DNA of 31,530 nucleotides from a virus. Shown one piece after another: positions 1-10,455 of this stretch. Made by a program: the position numbers and the translations under genes. The stretch covers positions 1 to 31,530 of IMG/VR virus record IMGVR_UViG_3300047276_000632; one strand, 5' to 3'. Every line of letters starts with the position of its first letter. Position 1 is the stretch's first letter. The notes below the pieces were generated by a model. It worked only from the letters and a program-made list of their open reading frames with translations. It made no database searches and was not told the DNA's origin.

Positions 1-1209
1 CTGCCGCCACAGGCCGTCTTCGAGGAAGAGGCAGGCGCCTTGGCAGAGCTGCAGCACCGGACAACTCCTGCACTCGGCGCGCGTCGACCAGTGATACGCC
101 GTCGTCAGACGGATGTCCTCGAACGCCTCGATCGAACCGATCCGGTGCTTGGTACCCGCACTCGTATTCTGACAGGTCAGGGCATTGCCCTTGAGATCGA
201 CGGCCAGATCGGTCGGCCGGTCCATGCCGCATTTCTGGCCAAGGGTCGATGCGGGGCGTGCCTTTGCGATGGAGCGGAAGAACTCGTCGATCTTCGAACG
301 TAGCGTCGAAACCGGCATGCTCTCACCGCGTACGGCTTCCCAGAACACCGCTTCCAGATAGGCGCGATGCTCGCTCTCGGTGTGAGGCGAGAGGACGACG
401 CCGCCCTGATCGTAGGGCAGCAGGATTTCCTCGGTGGAGAGCGGAATGTCGTCGACCGGCACACCCAAGCGCTCGGCAATGTGGCGCCGAACTGCAGCCA
501 GCGACGTGTTGTGCTTGTGCAGCACGCAGTTGAAGCCGATCCGGCCCCAGGGTCGCAGACGGTCGTAGAGCTTACGTATCGCGGCGCGCTGATTGGGGTC
601 ATCGAGCGGGTCCGGCCCGCGATAGCGCATGGCCGGGCCGTCATGGCTGATCCCGACACCGAAGCCGAGCTTATCCAAGAACTCGATCTTGTCGTCGTCG
701 ATCAGCGCGCCGTTGGTGATGACGTTGAACCGCGCCTTCGGATAGGCCGATCGCAGCGCGCCCGCGAGCACGCGGAACGTCTTCCAGTAGACCAGCGGTT
801 CGCCGCCCCAGAATTCGATGCGCACGCCGCTGCCATCGCCTGCCGTGCCGCCGTCGAACCAGGTCGGGAGGCGGCGCAGGAAGGACTGGACGTCGCCCAT
901 GTCACCCTGGATTTCATGGGGCTGGGACGCCTGATTGCAGTAGGTGCAGGCGTAGTTGCACTTGAGCCCCATCTGGATCTTTAGCACGCGGATGTCGCGG
1001 CTCTTGCGACCCGGATTGGCCGGAGACACGGGCTCCGCATGCGTCCAGTCCGCTGGCGATGGATCATACCCTGTGCCGACCGCCCGCAGATCGACGGGCT
1101 CGCCCGTGTCTTCCCAACGAAGTTCCGAGCTGTGCGGGCGGTAGAGCAGTGCGCGCGCGAATCCATTCCGGCCCGCCATCGCGAGCCGGTATTCCAGGGG
1201 TTCAGTCAT
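1..1209 (-). CDS. Radical SAM/SPASM enzyme A (C-terminus cut by window edge)
   Basis: This is a radical S-adenosylmethionine enzyme with a SPASM domain; 403 residues are visible and the gene runs off the left edge. The radical SAM cluster motif CxxxCxxC is at residues C84, C88 and C91, and a WGGEP motif at about 134-138 is the SAM-contacting segment. The SPASM pattern CX13GX4C (C327 to C346) and CX2CX5CX3C (C380, C383, C389, C393) binds auxiliary Fe-S clusters in this family; the last expected cysteine would lie beyond the edge. About 75 residues precede the core, longer than in the neighbouring paralogue, and could hold a substrate-recognition segment, which is a guess. The ATG at 1209 lies one base after the stop of radical SAM enzyme B, so the pair is probably translationally coupled. 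SPASM enzymes usually mature peptides; the exact reaction here is unknown. Confidence 0.93.
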   Translation of the reverse strand, partial: MTEPLEYRLAMAGRNGFARALLYRPHSSELRWEDTGEPVDLRAVGTGYDPSPADWTHAEPVSPANPGRKSRDIRVLKIQMGLKCNYACTYCNQASQPHEIQGDMGDVQSFLRRLPTWFDGGTAGDGSGVRIEFWGGEPLVYWKTFRVLAGALRSAYPKARFNVITNGALIDDDKIEFLDKLGFGVGISHDGPAMRYRGPDPLDDPNQRAAIRKLYDRLRPWGRIGFNCVLHKHNTSLAAVRRHIAERLGVPVDDIPLSTEEILLPYDQGGVVLSPHTESEHRAYLEAVFWEAVRGESMPVSTLRSKIDEFFRSIAKARPASTLGQKCGMDRPTDLAVDLKGNALTCQNTSAGTKHRIGSIEAFEDIRLTTAYHWSTRAECRSCPVLQLCQGACLFLEDGLWRQ

Positions 1210-1210
1210 T

Positions 1211-2233
1211 TCATGGCACCTTGATCTGATTGCGCGGCAGTGCGCCGTTCTCTTGTTCGTCGAGCCAGGCAAAGACCCGATGCTTCTCGCGGGACAGCCG
1301 GCAGTCGAGTTCGTGGGTCTGTGACAGATGGCAATTGCCGCGGCACCAGGAGCGCACCGGGCAGGCCTGGCACTCGGCGCTTCTCACCCAGCGCCAGGAG
1401 TGATCGAGAGCTTCTTGTTCGCCCTGATCGCGCGGCCCGGTCTCGTCGAAGAGATGCCCCGTCCGGAAGCTGCGTTTCACACTGTGGTGGCAGGCATAGC
1501 GGTTGCCGGCGAGATCGACCGACAGATGGCTGGCGCTGTGGCACAGCGGCTCGACCGGAGCCACCGCGCGCGCTAAGCCGCGCCGCCACTCATCGAGATG
1601 GCCGTCAAAGAACAGGCTGGCATATCGATGGCCCGCGCGCCGCATCCGTGCGAGCTCCCAGAGATGCTCGACATGGCGGTCGAGGCTCTGGGGCGTGAAC
1701 CAGTAGCGTGGCGCGCATCCCCTTGTCGTGCGAACCCAATGAGCATAGGGCCAGAACGGCCGGCGATATTCCGCTTCAAGGCGATCGAGCTTTTCGAACA
1801 GCGGCCAGATGACCGGGGTCTCCGCGGTGAAAAGAAAGGAAATGCTCGACCGCTTGAGCCTGCGCACCATGTCCCATGCCGGCTGGCCGAACTCGCCGTG
1901 ATCACTGACGACGACGTAGAAGTTCCAGTCGTTCATCGGCCCTACGAAATCCGGCGCCAGCAGACTGCCGTTGGTCGTGATGCGCACGAAGTCGAAAGTC
2001 AGCCCAGCGCGATCGAATGCCGTATGAATGGCGCTGATTTCGCTCCAGTAGAGCAGCGGCTCACCGCCCCAATAGTCGATCCGCTTGATCCCTTTCTCCC
2101 GGACGAACGGGACGACGCGCTCAATGAACGGCTCGACGGGGTGGCGCCGCCGCACGGCGTCGGGCGCATCGAGTTCCTGAAGGCAGTAGCTGCATGAGAA
2201 ATTGCAAGCATAGCCGAGGAAGATGTTGAGCAC
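1211..2233 (-). CDS. Radical SAM/SPASM enzyme B
   Basis: This complete 340-residue radical SAM enzyme has the cluster motif at C10, C14 and C17 and a WGGEP motif at about 55-59. Its SPASM domain is canonical: C231-X11-G-X4-C248, then C288-X2-C291-X5-C297-X3-C301, and a final C311. That cysteine pattern is the one defined for peptide- and protein-modifying maturases. The start is a GTG at 2233, three bases after the stop of the upstream 294-residue gene; only nine residues precede the CxxxCxxC motif, so there is no room for an N-terminal recognition domain. It shares the core motifs with enzyme A downstream but is clearly a divergent paralogue. The position at the end of the tail operon, behind a cysteine-rich tail fibre, suggests that the fibre is the substrate. 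That is inference. Confidence 0.93.
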   Translation of the reverse strand: MLNIFLGYACNFSCSYCLQELDAPDAVRRRHPVEPFIERVVPFVREKGIKRIDYWGGEPLLYWSEISAIHTAFDRAGLTFDFVRITTNGSLLAPDFVGPMNDWNFYVVVSDHGEFGQPAWDMVRRLKRSSISFLFTAETPVIWPLFEKLDRLEAEYRRPFWPYAHWVRTTRGCAPRYWFTPQSLDRHVEHLWELARMRRAGHRYASLFFDGHLDEWRRGLARAVAPVEPLCHSASHLSVDLAGNRYACHHSVKRSFRTGHLFDETGPRDQGEQEALDHSWRWVRSAECQACPVRSWCRGNCHLSQTHELDCRLSREKHRVFAWLDEQENGALPRNQIKVP

Positions 2234-2236
2234 GGC

Positions 2237-3121
2237 TCAAACCACCCGAACCTTTACCTCGGCTACGCTGCTGAAGTGCCGGAAGCCGACCTTGACCCGA
2301 AAGCTCTCGCCGGCATCGAGCCCGAGTGCTCCGATGCGGAACTGCGTCTTTCCCTTGATTGTCATCGCCCGTTGCTGCGGGAGGTACCCGCCGGTGGCTT
2401 CGATGTAGATCTCGGCCTCTGCATCCTTGATGGTTTTTCCTGCACCATCCACGAGCTGCGCTGTTACCGTGCCGTAGGCATCGGGCGCCAGATCAAGGGT
2501 GTCGGTCGATAACGCAATCTCGGCAAACGGCTTCTGAGCGCCCTGAAGCACGTCCGCATAGGTGACCTCGACGCCAGGATCGAGATTGCCGACCAATCCA
2601 AAATCGTGATGTAGCGCGACGCTGAAACTGCAGCTGTCGAAGTCGCAGCTCGCGAAGGGGACGTAGATCTGAAGCGCGCAGTTTCTGCCCGCTGTCGCCA
2701 GCAGCCTCGGTGTCCTGGCCTTGGTCTCGCGTGTCATCACGAAGCGATTGAACGGCACCTGCGGTGTCCCGGCGTGATCGAGCGGAAACAGCCAATTCGC
2801 GCGGTCGGACCATTCGCCTTTGCCGAGCATGCCATCAAGGTCGAGGCAGACGCTGCCGAGTTCCTCAAAGATGCGTCCATCGAGTGCCGCTGCAAGCATG
2901 AGTCCGGGGATCGGACGGCGGCGGAACATGGTGCTTGGCCACGCATCCGCGTGCTCCGTGAGCAAGCGCTCGGCTTCCAGTCGCATGATTGGATTGGCGT
3001 GCTCCACATCGGCCGGGAGCTCTCGGAATGTCCGGCAGGTCACCTTGCGACGATCCCGACGCACGAGCACGAGGATCGGCAACGGCAGATCGAAGAAGTG
3101 CCGGGTGAATGGCTTGATCAT
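2237..3121 (-). CDS. Hypothetical protein with Ig-like C-terminal domain, between tail fibre and radical SAM genes
   Basis: This 294-residue protein matches no family I can name. The C-terminal third (about 200-294) reads like a bacterial immunoglobulin-like or carboxypeptidase-regulatory beta-sandwich, with alternating hydrophobic strands and a DGAGKTIKDA turn. The N-terminal two thirds are unrecognised; they include a cluster of cysteines at about 157-174 (CALQ...CDFDSC). The start is well supported: a strong Shine-Dalgarno sequence (TGAGGAGG) lies seven bases before the ATG and overlaps the stop codon of the tail fibre. It is the gene immediately after the fibre and immediately before the two radical SAM genes, so a role in fibre assembly, fibre decoration or delivery to the maturases is plausible. 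No signal peptide or membrane segment is evident. Confidence 0.85.
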   Translation of the reverse strand: MIKPFTRHFFDLPLPILVLVRRDRRKVTCRTFRELPADVEHANPIMRLEAERLLTEHADAWPSTMFRRRPIPGLMLAAALDGRIFEELGSVCLDLDGMLGKGEWSDRANWLFPLDHAGTPQVPFNRFVMTRETKARTPRLLATAGRNCALQIYVPFASCDFDSCSFSVALHHDFGLVGNLDPGVEVTYADVLQGAQKPFAEIALSTDTLDLAPDAYGTVTAQLVDGAGKTIKDAEAEIYIEATGGYLPQQRAMTIKGKTQFRIGALGLDAGESFRVKVGFRHFSSVAEVKVRVV

Positions 3122-3132
3122 GATCTGCCTCC

Positions 3133-4197
3133 TCAGCCGTCACCGCAGGCGCAGTTGCAATCGCAATTGCAGTTGCAATTGCAGTTCGAGTAGCAGTTGA
3201 AGCCGCCGCAATTACAGTTGTTGAAGTTCCGTCGATACTCACCGCCGCCAATTTCGTCCGCAGCCAGATTGTATCCGGCGTACACGAAGCCCACGGATAC
3301 CGCCTGGTAGGTAACGCTCGAACCGCCCGCGAAATCGAATCCGCTTGGATTGGCTGGACCGAAGCCCAAGCCCCATGTCCACCAATTGCCGTTAGGTGGT
3401 GTCCATTGGGTGTTACCTAAACAATTGCCGTTAGGAATGTATCCCGTGCAATTATTCACTCGGTCATCGTAGTATTGATTTGACCTGTTGAGTTCGCCGA
3501 TATCTGACCCATCAGCGATTTTGAAACCCGTTGATCTCGCGGTGTCCCCGGTTGCCCCTGAACGTACGGATCCTGTCGAGATCAGTCCGGGCACCGTCAG
3601 CGTTCCGGTCATCGTATCGCCCGACTTGGCGACACGACTGCCGAGATCAACACCGGCGCGAATGTCAGTGATGGTCTGGCTTGCAAGATCACCTGTCGTG
3701 ATCGTGCCATCGGCAATCTTCGCACTGGTGATGGCGCCATCGACGAGTTTGCCGGTCGTCACCTGCGCATCAGCGATCTTGGTCGTTGTGACTTGCGCGT
3801 CGCCGATCTTTGTTGTCGTGACGGCGCCGTCCTGGATCTTAGCGTTCTGGACTGCAGCATTATCGATGTCGGACGCTGCGACGGTGTTTTTGACGGCAAG
3901 TGCCGCCAAGCCAAGATTGCTGCGTGCTGTTGCAGCGTCCGTTGCATTTGTGCCGCCCTGCGAGATCGGAACTGGGACACCGAGCGGGACGCGCGTCCAT
4001 GTGACGGGCGAGGCAATGGTCAGCTGATAGAGCTGGCCCAGATCCGTCCGAAAGCAGAGCATGCCGGCGACCAGATTGGTGCTGGGGAAGGTCGTGCCGG
4101 AGAAAGCCGATCGGATCGCCTCGTCGCGATCAAGGATATCCTGCCGGCTATCGCGGACCGCCTTGGTCGAGGGGATATCGGGATAGGTCTGGGCCAT
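3133..4197 (-). CDS. Tail fibre with Cys-rich (Asn-Cys repeat) C-terminus
   Basis: This 354-residue protein has hallmarks of a siphovirus side tail fibre. It carries an ISQGGTNATDAATARSNLG motif (about 78-96) and an AKSGDTMTGTLTV motif (about 190-202), both typical of lambda Stf-like fibres. Between them are about seven degenerate ten-residue repeats of the type (A/G)xVTTxKIxD, expected to form a beta-helical or collagen-like shaft. The C-terminus is unusual: the last 28 residues contain ten cysteines, mostly alternating with Asn or Asp, and the protein ends in CGDG. A GAGGA sequence precedes the ATG. Two SPASM radical SAM genes follow on the same strand, so the cysteine tail is a candidate modification substrate. 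Metal binding or disulfide cross-linking of the fibre tip are alternatives. Confidence 0.9.
   Translation of the reverse strand: MAQTYPDIPSTKAVRDSRQDILDRDEAIRSAFSGTTFPSTNLVAGMLCFRTDLGQLYQLTIASPVTWTRVPLGVPVPISQGGTNATDAATARSNLGLAALAVKNTVAASDIDNAAVQNAKIQDGAVTTTKIGDAQVTTTKIADAQVTTGKLVDGAITSAKIADGTITTGDLASQTITDIRAGVDLGSRVAKSGDTMTGTLTVPGLISTGSVRSGATGDTARSTGFKIADGSDIGELNRSNQYYDDRVNNCTGYIPNGNCLGNTQWTPPNGNWWTWGLGFGPANPSGFDFAGGSSVTYQAVSVGFVYAGYNLAADEIGGGEYRRNFNNCNCGGFNCYSNCNCNCNCDCNCACGDG
3151..3186 (-). repeat. Six tandem hexamers encoding the (Asn/Asp)-Cys tail
   Basis: On the plus strand this reads as six consecutive units gcagtt, gcaatc, gcaatt, gcagtt, gcaatt, gcagtt, i.e. AAYTGC or GATTGC on the coding strand. 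Each unit encodes Asn-Cys or Asp-Cys. The units are nearly identical at DNA level, so slippage could add or remove Cys pairs without a frameshift. Confidence 0.9.
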
Positions 4198-4208: not shown

Positions 4209-5390
4209 TCAGTAGCCTTCAGCGGCCCAGCTGGCGTTGCCGGCCACCGATGCTTGGGTTGCAGGGTTGATGAGGGTCAGCTGGAACCCGCTCGTCGTGA
4301 TCGTGCCGATCTGCGGCACGGCGATCGTCGCGCCGCCCTTGAACGTCGCCTGGACTTCAGGCGGCGCATTGAATGGCTGGTTGAAGGCGACAGTCAGTCC
4401 GCCGACAGGAACCGCAACCGTGCCGCGATCCCGGACATCCGGAACGTCCACGATGAGCTTGGCATCGGTCAGCGCGATCCTGCTGGTCGATGTGCTTGGC
4501 GCTGCGAGCGCCAAACGAATAAGCGCTTTCGCGTATTCGTAGTCGCCAGGCGTCAGGTCTCGGAATGCGCTGAAGCCAAGAGGACGCGCCTCGGCAATCA
4601 GCGCCGCAAATCCCTCGTCATCCAGCGCAGTCGTCCGGAAAGCGAGGTCTGCGATGACGGCCTCTGATGCGCGGAGGATCCGATCCAGCAGAGCCAGCTG
4701 TTCGAACGATGGCTTGGTGACGGCATTGCCTCGCGCATCTGCAATTGAGATCTGTTCGGCGATCTGCGCGAGGAATGAAATCAGATCAGTGTAGGTCTCC
4801 GCGAAGGCAAGGCTCCGAACGCTGCTCTGAATGGATTCAGCTGCACGAATGTCTCCGAGAGTGAACGTGCTATTGCGGGGTGTAACGGCATCGCGCGTGG
4901 ATTGTTCGGTGAACGCCGTGTTCTCAGAGATGGCTTGCCCGATACTGGCAGCGTCCTGTTCGAGTGTGCTCCATGCTTCATTGGTGACAGTGAGGGGGTT
5001 CTTTGACACGCTGTCGATCAGCCCCAGCATCTCTGCAAAGGGCGACTGGGTCATTTGGCGCAGCGCAATTTCGCCGATGCCGATCGACTCAGCAGCGGTC
5101 AGAATGAACGCGATGAGATCAATGTAGGTCTCCGCAAGTGACAGGGCCTCCGCTGCACTTGTTGTGGCGGCGAAGGCGTCCGCATCGGCGAGTCCAAGGC
5201 TCTCGCTGTCATTGACAATCGGCAGACACGCTTCAACCGGTGCAAGCAGAAGACCATCGCTTTCTTCGGCAAGAAAGCTCGTGGCGCTCGCGTCCTGCCA
5301 AGCCTTACCGGCCTCGGTCGCGTCCCAGCTGAAGGCAGCGTTACCCCAGACATAGGCCGTGCCTGGTGTTATGGTGATCGTGACTGGCAC
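4209..5390 (-). CDS. Tail protein with internal repeats and a lectin-like C-terminus
   Basis: This 393-residue protein lies between a small tail protein and the Cys-rich fibre. The middle contains at least two related segments of about 50 residues, starting at LSLAETYIDLIAF and LAFAETYTDLISF, each followed by a conserved SPFAEM or PSFEQL helix and then a leucine-rich stretch; this is an internal duplication. The last 75 residues are rich in beta-strand and resemble the H-type lectin-like domains found at the ends of phage baseplate or receptor-binding proteins (FNQPFNAPPEVQATF and FQLTLINPAT segments). The start is a GTG three bases after the upstream stop. I infer a virion tail-tip component, possibly a receptor binder, with moderate confidence. 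Confidence 0.78.
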   Translation of the reverse strand: MPVTITITPGTAYVWGNAAFSWDATEAGKAWQDASATSFLAEESDGLLLAPVEACLPIVNDSESLGLADADAFAATTSAAEALSLAETYIDLIAFILTAAESIGIGEIALRQMTQSPFAEMLGLIDSVSKNPLTVTNEAWSTLEQDAASIGQAISENTAFTEQSTRDAVTPRNSTFTLGDIRAAESIQSSVRSLAFAETYTDLISFLAQIAEQISIADARGNAVTKPSFEQLALLDRILRASEAVIADLAFRTTALDDEGFAALIAEARPLGFSAFRDLTPGDYEYAKALIRLALAAPSTSTSRIALTDAKLIVDVPDVRDRGTVAVPVGGLTVAFNQPFNAPPEVQATFKGGATIAVPQIGTITTSGFQLTLINPATQASVAGNASWAAEGY

Positions 5391-5894: not shown

Positions 5895-8800
5895 CTATGC
5901 GGGGTGAAGCTGCGCGCCGGTAAAGGCGCCAAGCGGTGCGAGCGGCGCCGCACCTGACGCGATAAGTCCGGTCTGGGCTGAGGCTACAAAAAGCCTGCGC
6001 GTCGTCGGTGTCTGGCAGATGCCGAAGGTGATGATGTCGCCCGAGCGCCGCAGCAGGGCGGCGGTCACGCGCTGGCCGTGATCATCCTCGAGCGCAAAGG
6101 CGCTATCCTCGGGCGACCAGATCAGCCGCAGCGTGCCGGCAGTGCCAGTCAACGCGAGATAGACGGTCGGTTCGTCAAGGATCTGGTCAAGCCGGACATC
6201 GAAGGTGGTCGAGAATTCCGAGGGGATGGCGATCGACCAGCCAGCCTTGGTCCCACCGCCAACCTTTAGGCCCTGATCAAAGCGCGCAGGTGTATAGGTA
6301 AGGTTCTGTGCCTGCGCTGGGCTCTGCCCGCGCATGCCTGTCAGGGCGCCTGCCAGCCGAAAGCCTTCAATCAGATCATTGGCAAGGGGCGCCTCAACTG
6401 CGATCTGGCTGCGGAGCGTCGCGCCGTCCACATCGCCAAGCGGCAGCCAAGCAGAGGAGGCCTCCGGATCCTGCCAGGCGAAGCCCGCGGTGTCCCAAAC
6501 CAGGTCGTCAGCCGGCGTCGTGCCGACATGCGCCTCGATCCAGTTTCGCGCCCGCCATGTCCGCCCGAAGGAGACGGGAAAGACATATTCGCCGCGCGCG
6601 ATGGTCGTTGAGCCGCTGCGCGCAAGGGCGAGCAGATTGCCGCCGATGATCTCCATGCCTTGCGTGACGCCTGGCCATCCCAGCGCCTGGCGATCGCTAA
6701 CCAGCACGGCGTTGCGTCCGGCGAGCGGCGCTAGCCTTGTCGTCGCATAGGCGGCGCCCTCGCTGTAGAGCCCGGCTGAGGAGATGGCCTTGAGCCAGAA
6801 GGTCTCATCTGTTGCTTCGCGGATTGGCCAAAGGGCAACAAGGTGGTTGCCGGCGGCACGCCCAACGAAGCGCCCCGTGCCCCAGGTCGTTCCGGCGCGA
6901 AGCTCGTATTCGACGCCTGTTCCTTCGACCGGCTCCCAGGAGGCCCGGACGTGATCGCCCTGCGGGATGACATCGAAGGCCGTCACATTGTCGGGTGGTG
7001 CTACAGCCGCCGCGATACTGCTGGCCGCAGGGCTCACCAGGCCGATTTCATCAATGGCCTTGATGTGAAAAAGCCGTTCCCCGGCATCAGCAAGAGCGAC
7101 AAACAGCGTTGTGCCGCGATGGCGGGTGGTGACAAGGGTCCCGGCATCCCAGGATGCGCCCATCCGGATTTCGTAGCCGACAAGATCGAGCGCCGAGACC
7201 GGCTCCCATGATAGCTGGACACCGTCTGCTCGCCGTTCCGCGGCAAAGCCGCCGACATCTGCCGGTGGCGTGGTGCGTCCCACAACTTGGTGCGCCAGCA
7301 CCTCCGTCCAGTCGGAGGCTATCCCGTTCCGAGCCACAAAGCGCAGGCGCAGGTCGTAGCTTTTGCCATCCTCGACCGGTTGAATGGCGACGGTCAGCGT
7401 ATCGGCGGGCTGCGTCGGCACTGAGCCCCATGGACCGGTATTGCCCGTCTCCCGGTAGCGGATTTCTATCCCGTCTGGCGCATTGGTGGCATCGGAGCCA
7501 GGGGGGTAGAGGCGAACCAGAATGCGCGGCGCCGACCTGCCATCGGGCCCGCGCACCAGCACGGTCTCATCGGAAATGGTGGTCCAAATCACCGGTGGCG
7601 CTGGGCGCACCAGTTCAATCTGCGCCGGGCGTGTGATGTAGCTGTCGAATGCCGGGATTGGGCCGGTATCGGCTTGGTGAACGCCGGGTGCGGCTGGGAT
7701 CAGGATCAGCTTGGCGGAGAGGTTCGGGCCCGGTTCGATCCCTTTGACCAGCATTGGCGCCGCCTCGCGCCCCGCTTCGCCGAACTGAAAGAGATCGCCG
7801 GGTTCAGGCGCCAATGTCTCGGGAAGGTGCGTGGCCAGCGTGACGCTCCGCGCATCACCCGGCGCCGTGTTAAGCGGTAGCACCTGGCTTGCCCCGTCCA
7901 AGCGCCGCACCCGCAGCGCATAATTCTTACCGGCCTCCATGGGCGCGGGTTCATCGAGCAGCAGACCCGTCACCAGCCCTTCGGCAAGGATCCGCGCCTT
8001 GATCCTCCCGCTCGCCAGACCGACCAGGATCACGTCATGGGCGAACATGACGAGGTCGCCATCGGTGGCGCGCAGCGCCTCGACATCCTGATAGACCTCA
8101 TGGGTTTCCGGCCGAAGGCGACCCACGGCCAGATGATAGCGCCCCTCGCGCCAAGCCTGTTCGGCGCGCGTGCAGGCCATCATGTCGACGGTCTCAAAGC
8201 GCGCAGCATTCTCCGCGCTATAGCCATCGGCATAGACGATCCGCTCATCCTCCTGCCAATCCTTGTCCGGATTGATAAAGCGGACCTTCAGCGCATGCGG
8301 CAGGTCAATGAACTGCTTGCGGCCGACATAGTTGAAGGAATTGCGCGGCGTGATGTGCAGCACCGGCACGCTCTGCGGAATATCACGCACCACGGAGTGC
8401 TTGCCATCGCGAATGCCGTAGCGCGCACGCGCATGGGAGGCGATGTCGCGCAGCGCCTCGACGACGGAACCGCCCTCGACGATGCCATCAAAAGTCCATT
8501 TCGGCTGTCCATCCTGCGCTGGCATCTCACAGGCCTCCGCCCAGGCGCGGATTGCGGTCAGATCGATGCGCTCATCGCTGATAAGCCGCGTGTTGCCGCG
8601 CCGGCGCAGCACGTCGCAATAGGCCCAGGCAGGATTGCGGGTCAGTTGCCAGGACCAAGCCGACCCGTTCCACACCTCCAGGTAAGAACTCGCAAGGCAG
8701 CTGATCTGCTGCAGTTGGTTGTTGATCTGTTCATAGGCCTTGAGCCGCAGCGCCACCATGGCAAGGCCCGTCATGGTGACTGGCGCGTCGTTGGTGATGG

Positions 8801-10016
8801 TGCGCAGTGCCGAGAGCGTGACGGTGTCGATCAGCCTCGGGTTGGTGGCGTCCGCCGTGGTTCGGCGCAGACGGACTTCGTACTGCCCGGTGTCCGGCGT
8901 GTCGAAGCGCCCGCCGCGCCGAACCGGCGAGGACGAGGAATCGACAATCGTAATCTTGCCGGCGGTTTCAAAGCCTGCATCGCCTCCAGCTTTCCAGGGG
9001 ATCGGCAACCAGGATACGGCGCCGACTTCGCGGTATTCCGCATCGAATTCCACCGTCGCGTTGGAACGCCCGCCCTGATCATTGAAAAAGGCGAGCCCCC
9101 GATCGAAGGAGAGGTCGAGATTGATCTCTCGCGCATCGGGCCTCGAGGTGATGGTGCGCCAGCCGCCCGAGGCTGTCAGCGCGATGGAGAGTGCATCCTC
9201 CTCGATACGCTGTGTGTAGAGGGTGATCGGCTGATCGCTCGGCCAGCCCTCACGAATCTCGGCCTCTGCGCCATCAAAGGCCGAGAGCGGCGTTGACCCG
9301 ATCCGGATATCTTCGATCTTGAGGGGGCCATAACCCACGAGCAAGAGCAGGCGCATGTAGCGCTCATTGCCAATGGTCTCGGTGTAGGGCTTCGCGGCCA
9401 GGATCGGGAAAAGCCGCCGCGTGCCATAGACGCGCGGGATCGGGCCGTATGGGTTGAGGCGATTGGTCGTCCCCGTGATGGCGTAGGTCGGTGTCGAAAG
9501 CCCTGCATCATTGCCGCGCAGGGATAGGTTGGGCGTCGGCGCGATCGCATTGACCAGCAGCGAGCCCACCATGGTGATGGCGCCCGCAATGACGAGCTTG
9601 GTGAGCCCCATGGCGGTAAAGACACCAGCCGCATTGACGGCCGCAACGTTGACGCCAAAGAACGCCGCCGTGAGCGCTGGCGCTGCCCAGGCTGCAAAGG
9701 CGATGACCGCAATGGCGCCGATGATAGCGAGCGGGTTCTTGCCTCCACCGCCGCCGCCGCCCAGCGCGTTGACCCGCACAAAGAGCCGCGCATTGGGCTT
9801 GGGGCGAACTTGGGCCCACCAGTCGCGCGGCACCTCCTCGTCATCGACAAAGACCTGCAGGTAGGGCCAGTAGCGCTGCGGTAGGTCCGAGGCTTCAAGC
9901 ATCTGCGCAAGGCTGAGGCCGACCGGCGCAAAACGCTCCTCCCGCTCGGTGGAAAAGGGGCGCGCGACAAGTGTCCATCGCAGCTGCGTATCGAACTGCG
10001 TGGCATCAAGCGGCAT
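5895..10016 (-). CDS. Host-specificity tip protein (TipJ/lambda J-like)
   Basis: This 1373-residue protein is the central tail-tip (host-specificity) protein. The N-terminal 85 residues plus a run of seven glycines (86-92) and a hydrophobic segment (about 96-120) resemble the lambda I-type region. The core that follows (PRVYGTRRLFP onward) matches the TipJ/J family, including the segment around CDVLRRRGNTRLI and the IVYADGYSAENA region. Fibronectin type III-like modules follow (for example VQLSWEPVSALDLVGYEIR), then a lectin- or adhesin-like tail. The start chosen is the ATG at 10016, which overlaps the NlpC stop by 11 bases and matches the homologous N-terminus; a longer ORF extends 40 codons upstream but overlaps the peptidase in another frame. 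Translation is probably coupled to the peptidase gene. Confidence 0.92.
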   Translation of the reverse strand: MPLDATQFDTQLRWTLVARPFSTEREERFAPVGLSLAQMLEASDLPQRYWPYLQVFVDDEEVPRDWWAQVRPKPNARLFVRVNALGGGGGGGKNPLAIIGAIAVIAFAAWAAPALTAAFFGVNVAAVNAAGVFTAMGLTKLVIAGAITMVGSLLVNAIAPTPNLSLRGNDAGLSTPTYAITGTTNRLNPYGPIPRVYGTRRLFPILAAKPYTETIGNERYMRLLLLVGYGPLKIEDIRIGSTPLSAFDGAEAEIREGWPSDQPITLYTQRIEEDALSIALTASGGWRTITSRPDAREINLDLSFDRGLAFFNDQGGRSNATVEFDAEYREVGAVSWLPIPWKAGGDAGFETAGKITIVDSSSSPVRRGGRFDTPDTGQYEVRLRRTTADATNPRLIDTVTLSALRTITNDAPVTMTGLAMVALRLKAYEQINNQLQQISCLASSYLEVWNGSAWSWQLTRNPAWAYCDVLRRRGNTRLISDERIDLTAIRAWAEACEMPAQDGQPKWTFDGIVEGGSVVEALRDIASHARARYGIRDGKHSVVRDIPQSVPVLHITPRNSFNYVGRKQFIDLPHALKVRFINPDKDWQEDERIVYADGYSAENAARFETVDMMACTRAEQAWREGRYHLAVGRLRPETHEVYQDVEALRATDGDLVMFAHDVILVGLASGRIKARILAEGLVTGLLLDEPAPMEAGKNYALRVRRLDGASQVLPLNTAPGDARSVTLATHLPETLAPEPGDLFQFGEAGREAAPMLVKGIEPGPNLSAKLILIPAAPGVHQADTGPIPAFDSYITRPAQIELVRPAPPVIWTTISDETVLVRGPDGRSAPRILVRLYPPGSDATNAPDGIEIRYRETGNTGPWGSVPTQPADTLTVAIQPVEDGKSYDLRLRFVARNGIASDWTEVLAHQVVGRTTPPADVGGFAAERRADGVQLSWEPVSALDLVGYEIRMGASWDAGTLVTTRHRGTTLFVALADAGERLFHIKAIDEIGLVSPAASSIAAAVAPPDNVTAFDVIPQGDHVRASWEPVEGTGVEYELRAGTTWGTGRFVGRAAGNHLVALWPIREATDETFWLKAISSAGLYSEGAAYATTRLAPLAGRNAVLVSDRQALGWPGVTQGMEIIGGNLLALARSGSTTIARGEYVFPVSFGRTWRARNWIEAHVGTTPADDLVWDTAGFAWQDPEASSAWLPLGDVDGATLRSQIAVEAPLANDLIEGFRLAGALTGMRGQSPAQAQNLTYTPARFDQGLKVGGGTKAGWSIAIPSEFSTTFDVRLDQILDEPTVYLALTGTAGTLRLIWSPEDSAFALEDDHGQRVTAALLRRSGDIITFGICQTPTTRRLFVASAQTGLIASGAAPLAPLGAFTGAQLHPA

Positions 10017-10455
10017 GGCGGTAGAGCCCAAGGAGGCGCTTTTCCCAGCGGGAGCCAGTCGTGAAGCGTTCGAGGATGCTGTCGCATTTCTTTTCGATGT
10101 GCAGCATGAAGCCGGGCGCCACGACGACGCCGACATGAATGGGGCGCCCCATCACGCGCAGCAGAACGCCGTCGCCGGGTTTCTCCTCCCCGATGGCGAT
10201 CGGACGCCAGAGGCGGATCCGTTCATCCATCAGCGCGGCAAGCAGGCTGCTGTCCTCGCCGGGTCGGTAGGCAATGCCCTCATATTCCGGCACGGCGCCG
10301 CCGAAGCGCTCGTTGATGACGAGCCGCAGCAGCCCGTAGCAGTCGAGCCCGTCCCGATTGCGCCCACCCTCCTTGAAGGGCAGGCCGACATAGGCGGAGA
10401 CCCAGTCGGGCAGGCTAGACGAGGCTGACTGTGCGATGGCGGTGAAGTCCTTCAT
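10006..10455 (-). CDS. NlpC/P60 tail peptidase (lambda K-like)
   Basis: This 149-residue C40 peptidase is of the kind carried at the tail tip of lambda-like phages, where it is thought to cut peptidoglycan during DNA entry. The catalytic cysteine is C39 in RDGLDCYGL, the histidine is H107 in GRPIHVGVVV, and H119 could be the third polar residue. The ATG at 10455 was preferred because a GCGAGG lies upstream and conserved homology begins shortly after, at LPDWVSAYVGLPF. An in-frame ATG at 10506 would add 17 residues but has no ribosome-binding site and lies at the junction with the inserted Phd cassette. The end overlaps the start of the tip protein gene. Confidence 0.9.
   Translation of the reverse strand: MKDFTAIAQSASSSLPDWVSAYVGLPFKEGGRNRDGLDCYGLLRLVINERFGGAVPEYEGIAYRPGEDSSLLAALMDERIRLWRPIAIGEEKPGDGVLLRVMGRPIHVGVVVAPGFMLHIEKKCDSILERFTTGSRWEKRLLGLYRHAA

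Follow-up and report, generated by a model that had tools for sequence, protein, structure and literature searches.

The phage tip adhesin gp38 is encoded by a separate gene that lies directly after the fibre gene. A similar position is held by the gene for P0001, a protein of 294 residues encoded in the IMG/VR virus record IMGVR_UViG_3300047276_000632, of which a stretch of 31,530 bases (the window) was analysed; all the genes under discussion lie on its minus strand. Genes of the P0001 family likewise lie directly downstream of a fibre gene (61 of 64 loci). Unlike the gp38-type tip adhesins of T-even-like phages (PMC12892980), P0001 has radical S-adenosylmethionine (SAM) enzymes as neighbours and an immunoglobulin-like (Ig) domain. 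Tail-fibre chaperones, phage-encoded helpers needed for the tail fibre, are described for Alteromonas phage V22 (PMC7289586) and Pam3 (PMC9608196); P0001 would resemble them only if it were a chaperone itself, and differs from them in being swapped together with a modifying enzyme while the fibre body stays. In systems for ribosomally synthesized and post-translationally modified peptides (RiPPs) a Cys-rich substrate adjoins radical SAM/SPASM enzymes, as it does here, whereas the presumed substrate here is a virion fibre. To our knowledge these systems have no counterpart of P0001. The ranthipeptide enzyme PapB forms thioethers between Cys and Asp or Glu (PMC9413430). In the closest published parallel seen, two pelagimyophages differ by radical SAM cassettes in a host recognition cluster (PMC7029224); they are likened to the present locus by description only, the excerpt naming no Cys-tipped substrate, partner protein or exchange boundaries. 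Among the open-licence PMC papers listed in literature searches, no title or opening abstract lines dealt with radical SAM modification of phage fibres. The building blocks described below are of known kinds; for the way they are combined, for the partner family and for the exchange rule, these searches brought up no earlier description.

To judge from its sequence, P0001 is not an orphan and belongs to an apparently undescribed family. Direct relatives share 98, 88, 73 and ∼45% identity with it, and the wider family was found through anchoring on the core enzyme rSAM-B together with a profile hidden Markov model search of neighbouring open reading frames (ORFs). Our analysis indicates that P0001 is very probably a dedicated partner of a system in which the fibre tip is predicted to be modified, and that it probably takes part in building or capping this tip, by which the phage would contact its host. 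A preliminary description had noted, without giving a strand, a protein of this length between a fibre gene and radical SAM genes; the ORF is real and on the minus strand, and its position holds, the order being fibre (4197..3133), P0001, rSAM-A (2233..1211) and rSAM-B (from 1209 on). The P0001 gene starts 11 nt past the fibre gene and ends 3 nt ahead of the rSAM-A GTG. The features of the locus are as follows.

3133..4197, minus strand: tail fibre of 354 amino acids (aa) with a Cys-rich C-terminal tip, the presumed substrate (translation; PHROG tail fibre families)
3136..3216, minus strand: Cys-rich tip of the fibre, CNCGGFNCYSNCNCNCNCDCNCACGDG, with Cys at 10 of its 27 residues (translation; recurs in relatives)
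3128..3133, minus strand: AGGAGG, the Shine-Dalgarno (SD) sequence that serves the slot gene and shares one base with the fibre stop TGA (3135..3133)
2237..3121, minus strand: P0001, the Ig-family tip-partner or 'slot' protein, 294 aa (ORF, translation, family alignments, locus census)
2528..3121, minus strand: N-terminal domain of P0001, residues 1-198, predicted beta-rich (AlphaFold2 model and alignment; no solved relative found)
2240..2527, minus strand: predicted C-terminal Ig-like domain of P0001, Big_1/intimin-type, residues 199-294 (fold comparison of the model)
1211..2233, minus strand: rSAM-A, a radical SAM/SPASM protein of 340 aa, the exchangeable second enzyme (PF04055, TIGR04085)
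1..1209, minus strand: rSAM-B, a radical SAM/SPASM protein, the core enzyme that is kept, cut by the window end (Pfam and NCBIfam matches)

Association of the family with Cys-tipped fibres was assessed in viral loci anchored on rSAM-B, one scan for which kept the best 80 of 310. The census covered 110 loci, namely L012-L126 less the duplicates L012, L013, L054, L055, L066, L068 and L070, together with L002 and L008, in which two of these discarded contigs are present. Loci with less than 2,700 nt upstream (29 of the 110; among them 11 with the family, one with the second slot family, f2, and seven with a tip) were set aside. A Cys-tipped upstream ORF was present in 79 of the remaining 81: 64 had a tip and a family member, 13 a tip and an f2 protein, and two (L026 and L036) a tip and neither. 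L087 has a family member without a detected tip, and L095 neither a tip nor a slot family. The two slot families never shared a locus (0/110). Since the 81 loci include near-copies, the 36 clusters of rSAM-B at 80% identity are the better unit; 33 of these contain the family and three f2, and among the 33, 31 have the family only, while two are mixed, combining loci that have it with loci that have neither slot family. In 61 of 64 loci the start of the family ORF falls within a span reaching from 100 nt ahead of the end of a tip ORF to 400 nt past it, the three outliers (L016, L057 and L085) being, we take it, cases of over-long ORF starts. In a control on 86 loci, 90 of 813 upstream plus-strand ORFs showed the tip pattern, as did 1 of 891 other plus-strand ORFs; on the minus strand 9 of 1,576 ORFs matched, and 8 of the 86 loci had such an ORF. 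Anchoring in the reverse direction, by the family alignment, gave 35 loci besides L022, with rSAM-B in 32, and on new contigs in 25 of 28; seven of the 35 are on contigs already counted (L129, L153, L154, L156, L157, L161 and L163), and the others are partly near-copies. The three reverse loci without rSAM-B run out of contig downstream (L142 after ∼4.2 kb, L143 after 1.3 kb, L148 after 2.2 kb), and a distance of 3-4 kb between the family gene and rSAM-B does occur elsewhere. The tie to the fibre and radical SAM genes that the preliminary description proposed is thus seen in both directions, and the family is not absent from related systems, the distribution it had asked to have compared with those of rSAM-B and the Cys-rich fibre.

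Several variants of this arrangement were observed. The f2 family (L035:7079-7861, L005:7273-7995 and relatives), which fills the slot in place of the Ig family, has a C-terminal stretch like ALEQQVDLLTTLV; no kinship with the P0001 N-terminal domain was found by hhalign (probability 6.8% at most), and none was found for the Achromobacter slot protein, which had been considered as a P0001 relative. The Achromobacter phage JWF has a fibre, an f2-type slot protein and rSAM-B. Its fibre (L005:5835-7286), which the fibre of Achromobacter phage 2-1 (L006:5844-7286) resembles by sequence, carries a Hint/intein-like domain (PF05203 above cut-off, PF01079 below) directly past its Cys-rich tip, and because of this placement such a tip may be released or ligated by self-processing. 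In six loci (L144, L151, L152, L074, L075 and L080) three Cys-tipped proteins stand in a row ahead of one family gene, possibly making up a heterotrimeric tip. Family members also occur downstream of rSAM-B (L108:3502-4539, L112:3430-4386, L122:1468-2262); as at most 1.9 kb of upstream sequence is present there, these loci may have an upstream copy as well. L108 and L112 have an upstream ORF with PP-loop-like sequence, a label given by eye.

Nucleotide alignments indicate that the last codons of the fibre tip, the slot protein and the second enzyme are exchanged as one cassette in two phage groups, with the positions below accurate to a few bases only, as they are BLAST alignment ends. The window and L014 share 92.3% nucleotide identity until only 18 bases of the fibre gene, counting its stop codon, are left, do not align across P0001 and rSAM-A except for a stray 40-nt match, and resume at 80.6% identity with the first base past the rSAM-A gene. 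The L014 interval holds a far family relative with the same Ig domain and a 2-oxoglutarate (2OG)-oxygenase-like enzyme. L015 breaks from the window at the same two places as L014, with flanks at 72% and 75%. In the second group, one fibre body and one rSAM-B (73-93% nucleotide identity) enclose four different interiors. Three contain the family, with rSAM-A (L027), the c4 enzyme (L028, L032 and L048) or a 2OG-like enzyme (L052); the fourth, in L026 (5738-7906) and L036, is family-free and consists of a 2OG-like protein, a 158-aa protein of no recognised kind and a protein called ATP-grasp-like by eye (D-Ala-D-lactate ligase matches at E 0.058). The left break leaves the last 6-18 bases of the fibre gene outside the match, and the right break lies near the first start codon of the rSAM-B ORF, at most 32 bases ahead of it and 18 bases past it. 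Exceptions are L027 and L037, whose match extends 11 bases beyond the fibre gene, and L031, which stays similar to L028 and L032 over part of the slot gene.

In its distribution the second enzyme fits the slot protein better than it fits rSAM-B. When the enzymes between the slot gene and rSAM-B were assigned seven labels in 95 loci, 15 label changes were required on the slot-protein tree versus 26 on the rSAM-B tree (both quick trees with long branches), and ∼51 on either when the labels were shuffled; adjacency does not explain the difference, since the second enzyme, where present, sits between both genes. An earlier tally of 98 loci gave 19 versus 29 changes, after which the 'other' loci L084, L085 and L086 were dropped and L017 was relabelled rSAM-A. 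The family member is kept without a recognised second enzyme in 13 of the 95 loci, the label 'none' meaning no recognised enzyme and less than 250 nt from the slot gene to rSAM-B. How the fibre tip ends also depends on which second enzyme is present, an indication that this enzyme acts on the tip. In counts uncorrected for kinship, ends of the form C[GNR]D(A/G) were found in all 9 distinct tips from rSAM-A loci versus 1 of 55 others (Fisher p 4e-10, a value that ignores kinship), CC ends in 6 of 7 c3 tips versus 1 of 57 others, ends in GNG in 6 of 8 c4 tips versus 0 of 56 others, and single-Cys ends in 19 of 25 c0 tips and also in 7 of 11 from loci without a second enzyme. This tally omits the Hint-type fibres L022, L160 and L162, together with L104 and the 'other' tips L085 and L086, and six loci whose tip was missed by the rule (L071, L084, L087, L097, L101 and L150). 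The labels c0 and c3 denote enzymes called 2OG-Fe(II) oxygenase-like because PF13759 matches a part of their members (L022 above cut-off; L014, L026, L088 and L099 below it), while the PF13759 search gave no match for L030 and L076; c4 had no Pfam match and is 'hydroxylase-like' by eye, and L092 has an aminotransferase class V (PF00266, E 4e-28). The best NCBIfam match of rSAM-A, which begins straight at the radical SAM motif with no N-terminal extension, is PapB; against the PapB model NF047865 rSAM-A and rSAM-B scored 48.9 and 58.8 bits, far below the cut-off of 340, with rSAM-B scored as the fragment left by the window end. Because rSAM-A tips end in C[GNR]D and PapB is the best match of rSAM-A, PapB-like chemistry on these tips is a fair guess, and no more.

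The AlphaFold2 (AF2) model of P0001, built from a 29-row alignment, had a pLDDT of 92.0 and a pTM of 0.88. In this model residues 199-294 form a predicted Ig-like domain of the Big_1/intimin/GH2 C-terminal kind, with VIA Z scores of 12.7 to 9bey (94 aa, root-mean-square deviation (rmsd) 2.3), 11.0 to the phage Chi neck protein 8vhx_H and 10.7 to intimin 1f00 (90 aa, rmsd 2.4), so that the Ig-like end proposed for the protein is borne out by its fold. Pfam scans gave weak Big_1 (PF02369) matches in 3 of 29 family members (best E 0.0027, listed without the score cut-off) and no match of any kind, Big_1 included, for P0001 itself; the domain carries the motifs GGYLPxxR and ALGL..G. Across the family an N-terminal part of mostly 130-250 residues precedes the Ig domain, beyond which the members listed have 0-5 residues. 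Among 75 N-terminal parts of 120-260 residues, 50 fell into one BLAST-linked cluster and the others were weakly linked or unlinked; the recurrent stretches E.SD....F and L.IYVPF are seen in the alignment.

Residues 1-197 modelled alone by AF2 with 44 alignment rows reached a pLDDT of 92.8. The preliminary description recognised nothing in the N-terminal two thirds, and the present searches linked them to nothing solved: P0001 matched no Pfam or PHROG family and only one NCBIfam model, at E 0.02 and well short of its cut-off. Of the profile searches against PDB sequences, one returned nothing and the other a single chance-level match (E 0.5), and no PDB fold rose above noise (Foldseek best E 0.77; VIA best Z 4.0). 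The phi812 baseplate protein 9euj_G (VIA Z 4.0, 91 aa, rmsd 3.8) and SPP1 gp22 (2xc8_B; VIA Z 3.7, 108 aa, rmsd 4.3) were considered as folds and left unused at this noise level, and such a list does not establish a new fold. Six predicted viral proteins of 257-315 aa in BFVD (five uncharacterized, one unnamed) matched the N-terminal domain at E < 1e-3. On kinship with gp38 the observations are this lack of Pfam, PHROG and above-noise PDB matches, in searches none of which was aimed at gp38. Clear homology to an enzyme or tail protein unrelated to the fibre, which the preliminary description had named as the finding that would speak against it, did not turn up.

Translation of P0001 from its own strong ribosome-binding site was examined through duplex energies with the anti-SD sequence. 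These were -11.4 kcal/mol for P0001, -5.9 for the fibre, -5.4 for rSAM-A and -3.3 for rSAM-B, in keeping with the earlier remark that this site is the strongest in the region and overlaps the fibre stop. Across loci (one per rSAM-B cluster, taking for all genes the best start within 30 codons) the family SD was compared with that of rSAM-B in 44 pairs and was the stronger in 31 and the weaker in 12 (p 6e-5). In 33 pairs with the second enzyme it was the stronger in 27 and the weaker in 6 (p 3e-4), and in 42 pairs with the fibre the stronger in 25 and the weaker in 16 (p 0.03). The clusters represented (n = 49: 43 with tip and family, five with tip and f2, one with neither) lean towards the family, since family-bearing loci were preferred and loci fetched via the family were included. 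From this pattern of SD strength, like that of structural genes, it looks as though the family protein is needed in structural amounts. The ratio of nonsynonymous to synonymous substitution rates (dN/dS) was 0.09-0.22 in nine pairs of relatives and, with the frame conserved, this low ratio argues that P0001 is no chance ORF. In six pairs compared by domain, the Ig domain had the higher dN/dS in four, the lower in one and about the same in one; no positive selection was seen in P0001 family pairs.

A possible sequence of events would begin with synthesis of a fibre whose C-terminal tip contains alternating Cys; this tip rSAM-B would then cross-link or otherwise alter; that the tip is modified at all we infer from the presence of radical SAM/SPASM enzymes, not from chemistry. 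The exchangeable second enzyme, here rSAM-A, would work close to the C-terminus of the tip. P0001, made from its strong overlapping ribosome-binding site, would bind the finished tip, probably via its N-terminal domain, and would remain on the virion as a distal cap or adhesin displaying the Ig domain. We give about even odds to P0001 being such a cap or adhesin on the virion and not a helper in assembly. Phage Ig-like domains are mostly found in virion proteins, and it is the Ig domain and the SD strength, both favouring a virion part, that lead us to rank a cap or adhesin above an adaptor or chaperone, and this in turn above a substrate.

P0001 could tentatively be seen as an assembly chaperone or adaptor instead, one that binds the tip transiently, separates its thiols, presents it to both enzymes and is left out of the virion. 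The placement of its gene between the fibre and the enzymes, its co-exchange with the second enzyme and the tip end, and the lack of an N-terminal extension ahead of the radical SAM motif of rSAM-A all accord with such a role, as do the single family member that serves three tandem tips in some loci and the existence of two slot families without detected kinship. However, the family also occurs in the 13 of 95 loci labelled 'none' and persists without a recognised second enzyme, so that P0001 is not merely that enzyme's private adaptor; its SD strength is fibre-like, not enzyme-like, and an Ig domain is present. Pfam and PHROG scans matched neither P0001 nor its family to a known chaperone family, and no fusion of the Ig domain with a tip or with rSAM-B, either of which could have told the readings apart, was found among the ORFs searched. 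A chaperone of the fibre shaft is unlikely, since the tip end, partner and second enzyme change jointly while the fibre body and rSAM-B stay. Several observations also weigh against the cap or adhesin. An unrelated family takes the slot in 13 of 81 loci, which fits chaperones as well, and one member for three tandem tips fits a trans-acting helper too; both domains are under purifying selection, unlike a hypervariable adhesin; the family is not indispensable, because L026 and L036 have a tip and rSAM-B with neither slot family; and tblastn with three family members against 50,697 phage records gave no match.

That the second enzyme modifies P0001 rather than the fibre is unlikely. The better fit of that enzyme to the slot-protein tree (15 versus 26 changes) would agree with it, but the tip end varies with the second enzyme, pointing to the tip as the substrate, and members are present where no second enzyme is recognised. 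The 'Cys cluster' that the preliminary description placed at about residues 157-174, and through which it considered P0001 as a second substrate, does not hold up: P0001 has five cysteines (29, 92, 148, 159 and 164), only two of them in that span, and these two are not conserved in the family alignment, where L008 has Ser in place of C164 and L020 has Gly in place of C159. Cys is entirely absent from eleven member ORFs of at least 200 aa (from ten different records, as one was counted twice), and a role as substrate through its own Cys was therefore rejected as a family property. Least probable, to the point of being hard to credit, is that the N-terminal domain is an enzyme in its own right, such as a third tip-modifying activity or a thiol handler. 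The polar stretch E.SD ... PFN ... TK recurs in many N-terminal domains and no solved fold match was found, yet no invariant or near-invariant column runs through the 44 aligned N-terminal domains, and the SD strength is unlike that of the enzymes.

The window virus is probably a phage of Alphaproteobacteria, on the basis of likeness to Rhodobacter and Bradyrhizobium phages: its capsid/protease protein has ∼41% identity to the former, and its TipJ protein 34.5% identity to a protein of the latter over 63% of its length. Upstream of the fibre lie the following genes.

5895..10136, minus strand: TipJ (10136..5895), followed by a small phrog_5417 protein, a 393-aa protein and the fibre
4209..5390, minus strand: the 393-aa protein, with a weak H-type lectin match near its C-terminus (PF09458, E 0.015, below cut-off)

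Searches elsewhere gave one chance match among genome contigs (a membrane protein, L007), bacterial prophages being in effect unsearched there, and no rSAM-B match in plasmids at E 1e-20; among the Campylobacter phage matches, the one region inspected had no annotated fibre. In the Thermus phage Cumys (PQ109079, L128:5940-8230), a radical SAM protein directly follows a 343-aa His/Ser/Asp-repeat protein (HSDSHSDS...) that sits behind baseplate genes, and is itself followed by a DUF483 protein; the repeat protein is possibly another fibre modified by a radical SAM enzyme.

We give an even chance to the broader view that an exchangeable 'tip chemistry' cassette, present in more than one phage group, rewrites the covalent chemistry of the tip, with P0001 as the matched cap or reader. 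In that view the cassette would comprise the last codons of the fibre, a partner, most commonly of the P0001 family, and a tailoring enzyme, a composition that we hold at the same even strength. If this is true, phage receptor-binding tips would be built with radical SAM cross-links or hydroxylations, a chemistry exchanged as a module, and hosts would be recognised by peptide natural-product chemistry on the virion. An unnamed protein family would gain a testable role, and some dozens of distinct natural radical SAM substrates with simple repeating tips would be on offer, together with natural swaps that replace the tip end, the partner and the enzyme jointly and leave the fibre body and core enzyme constant.
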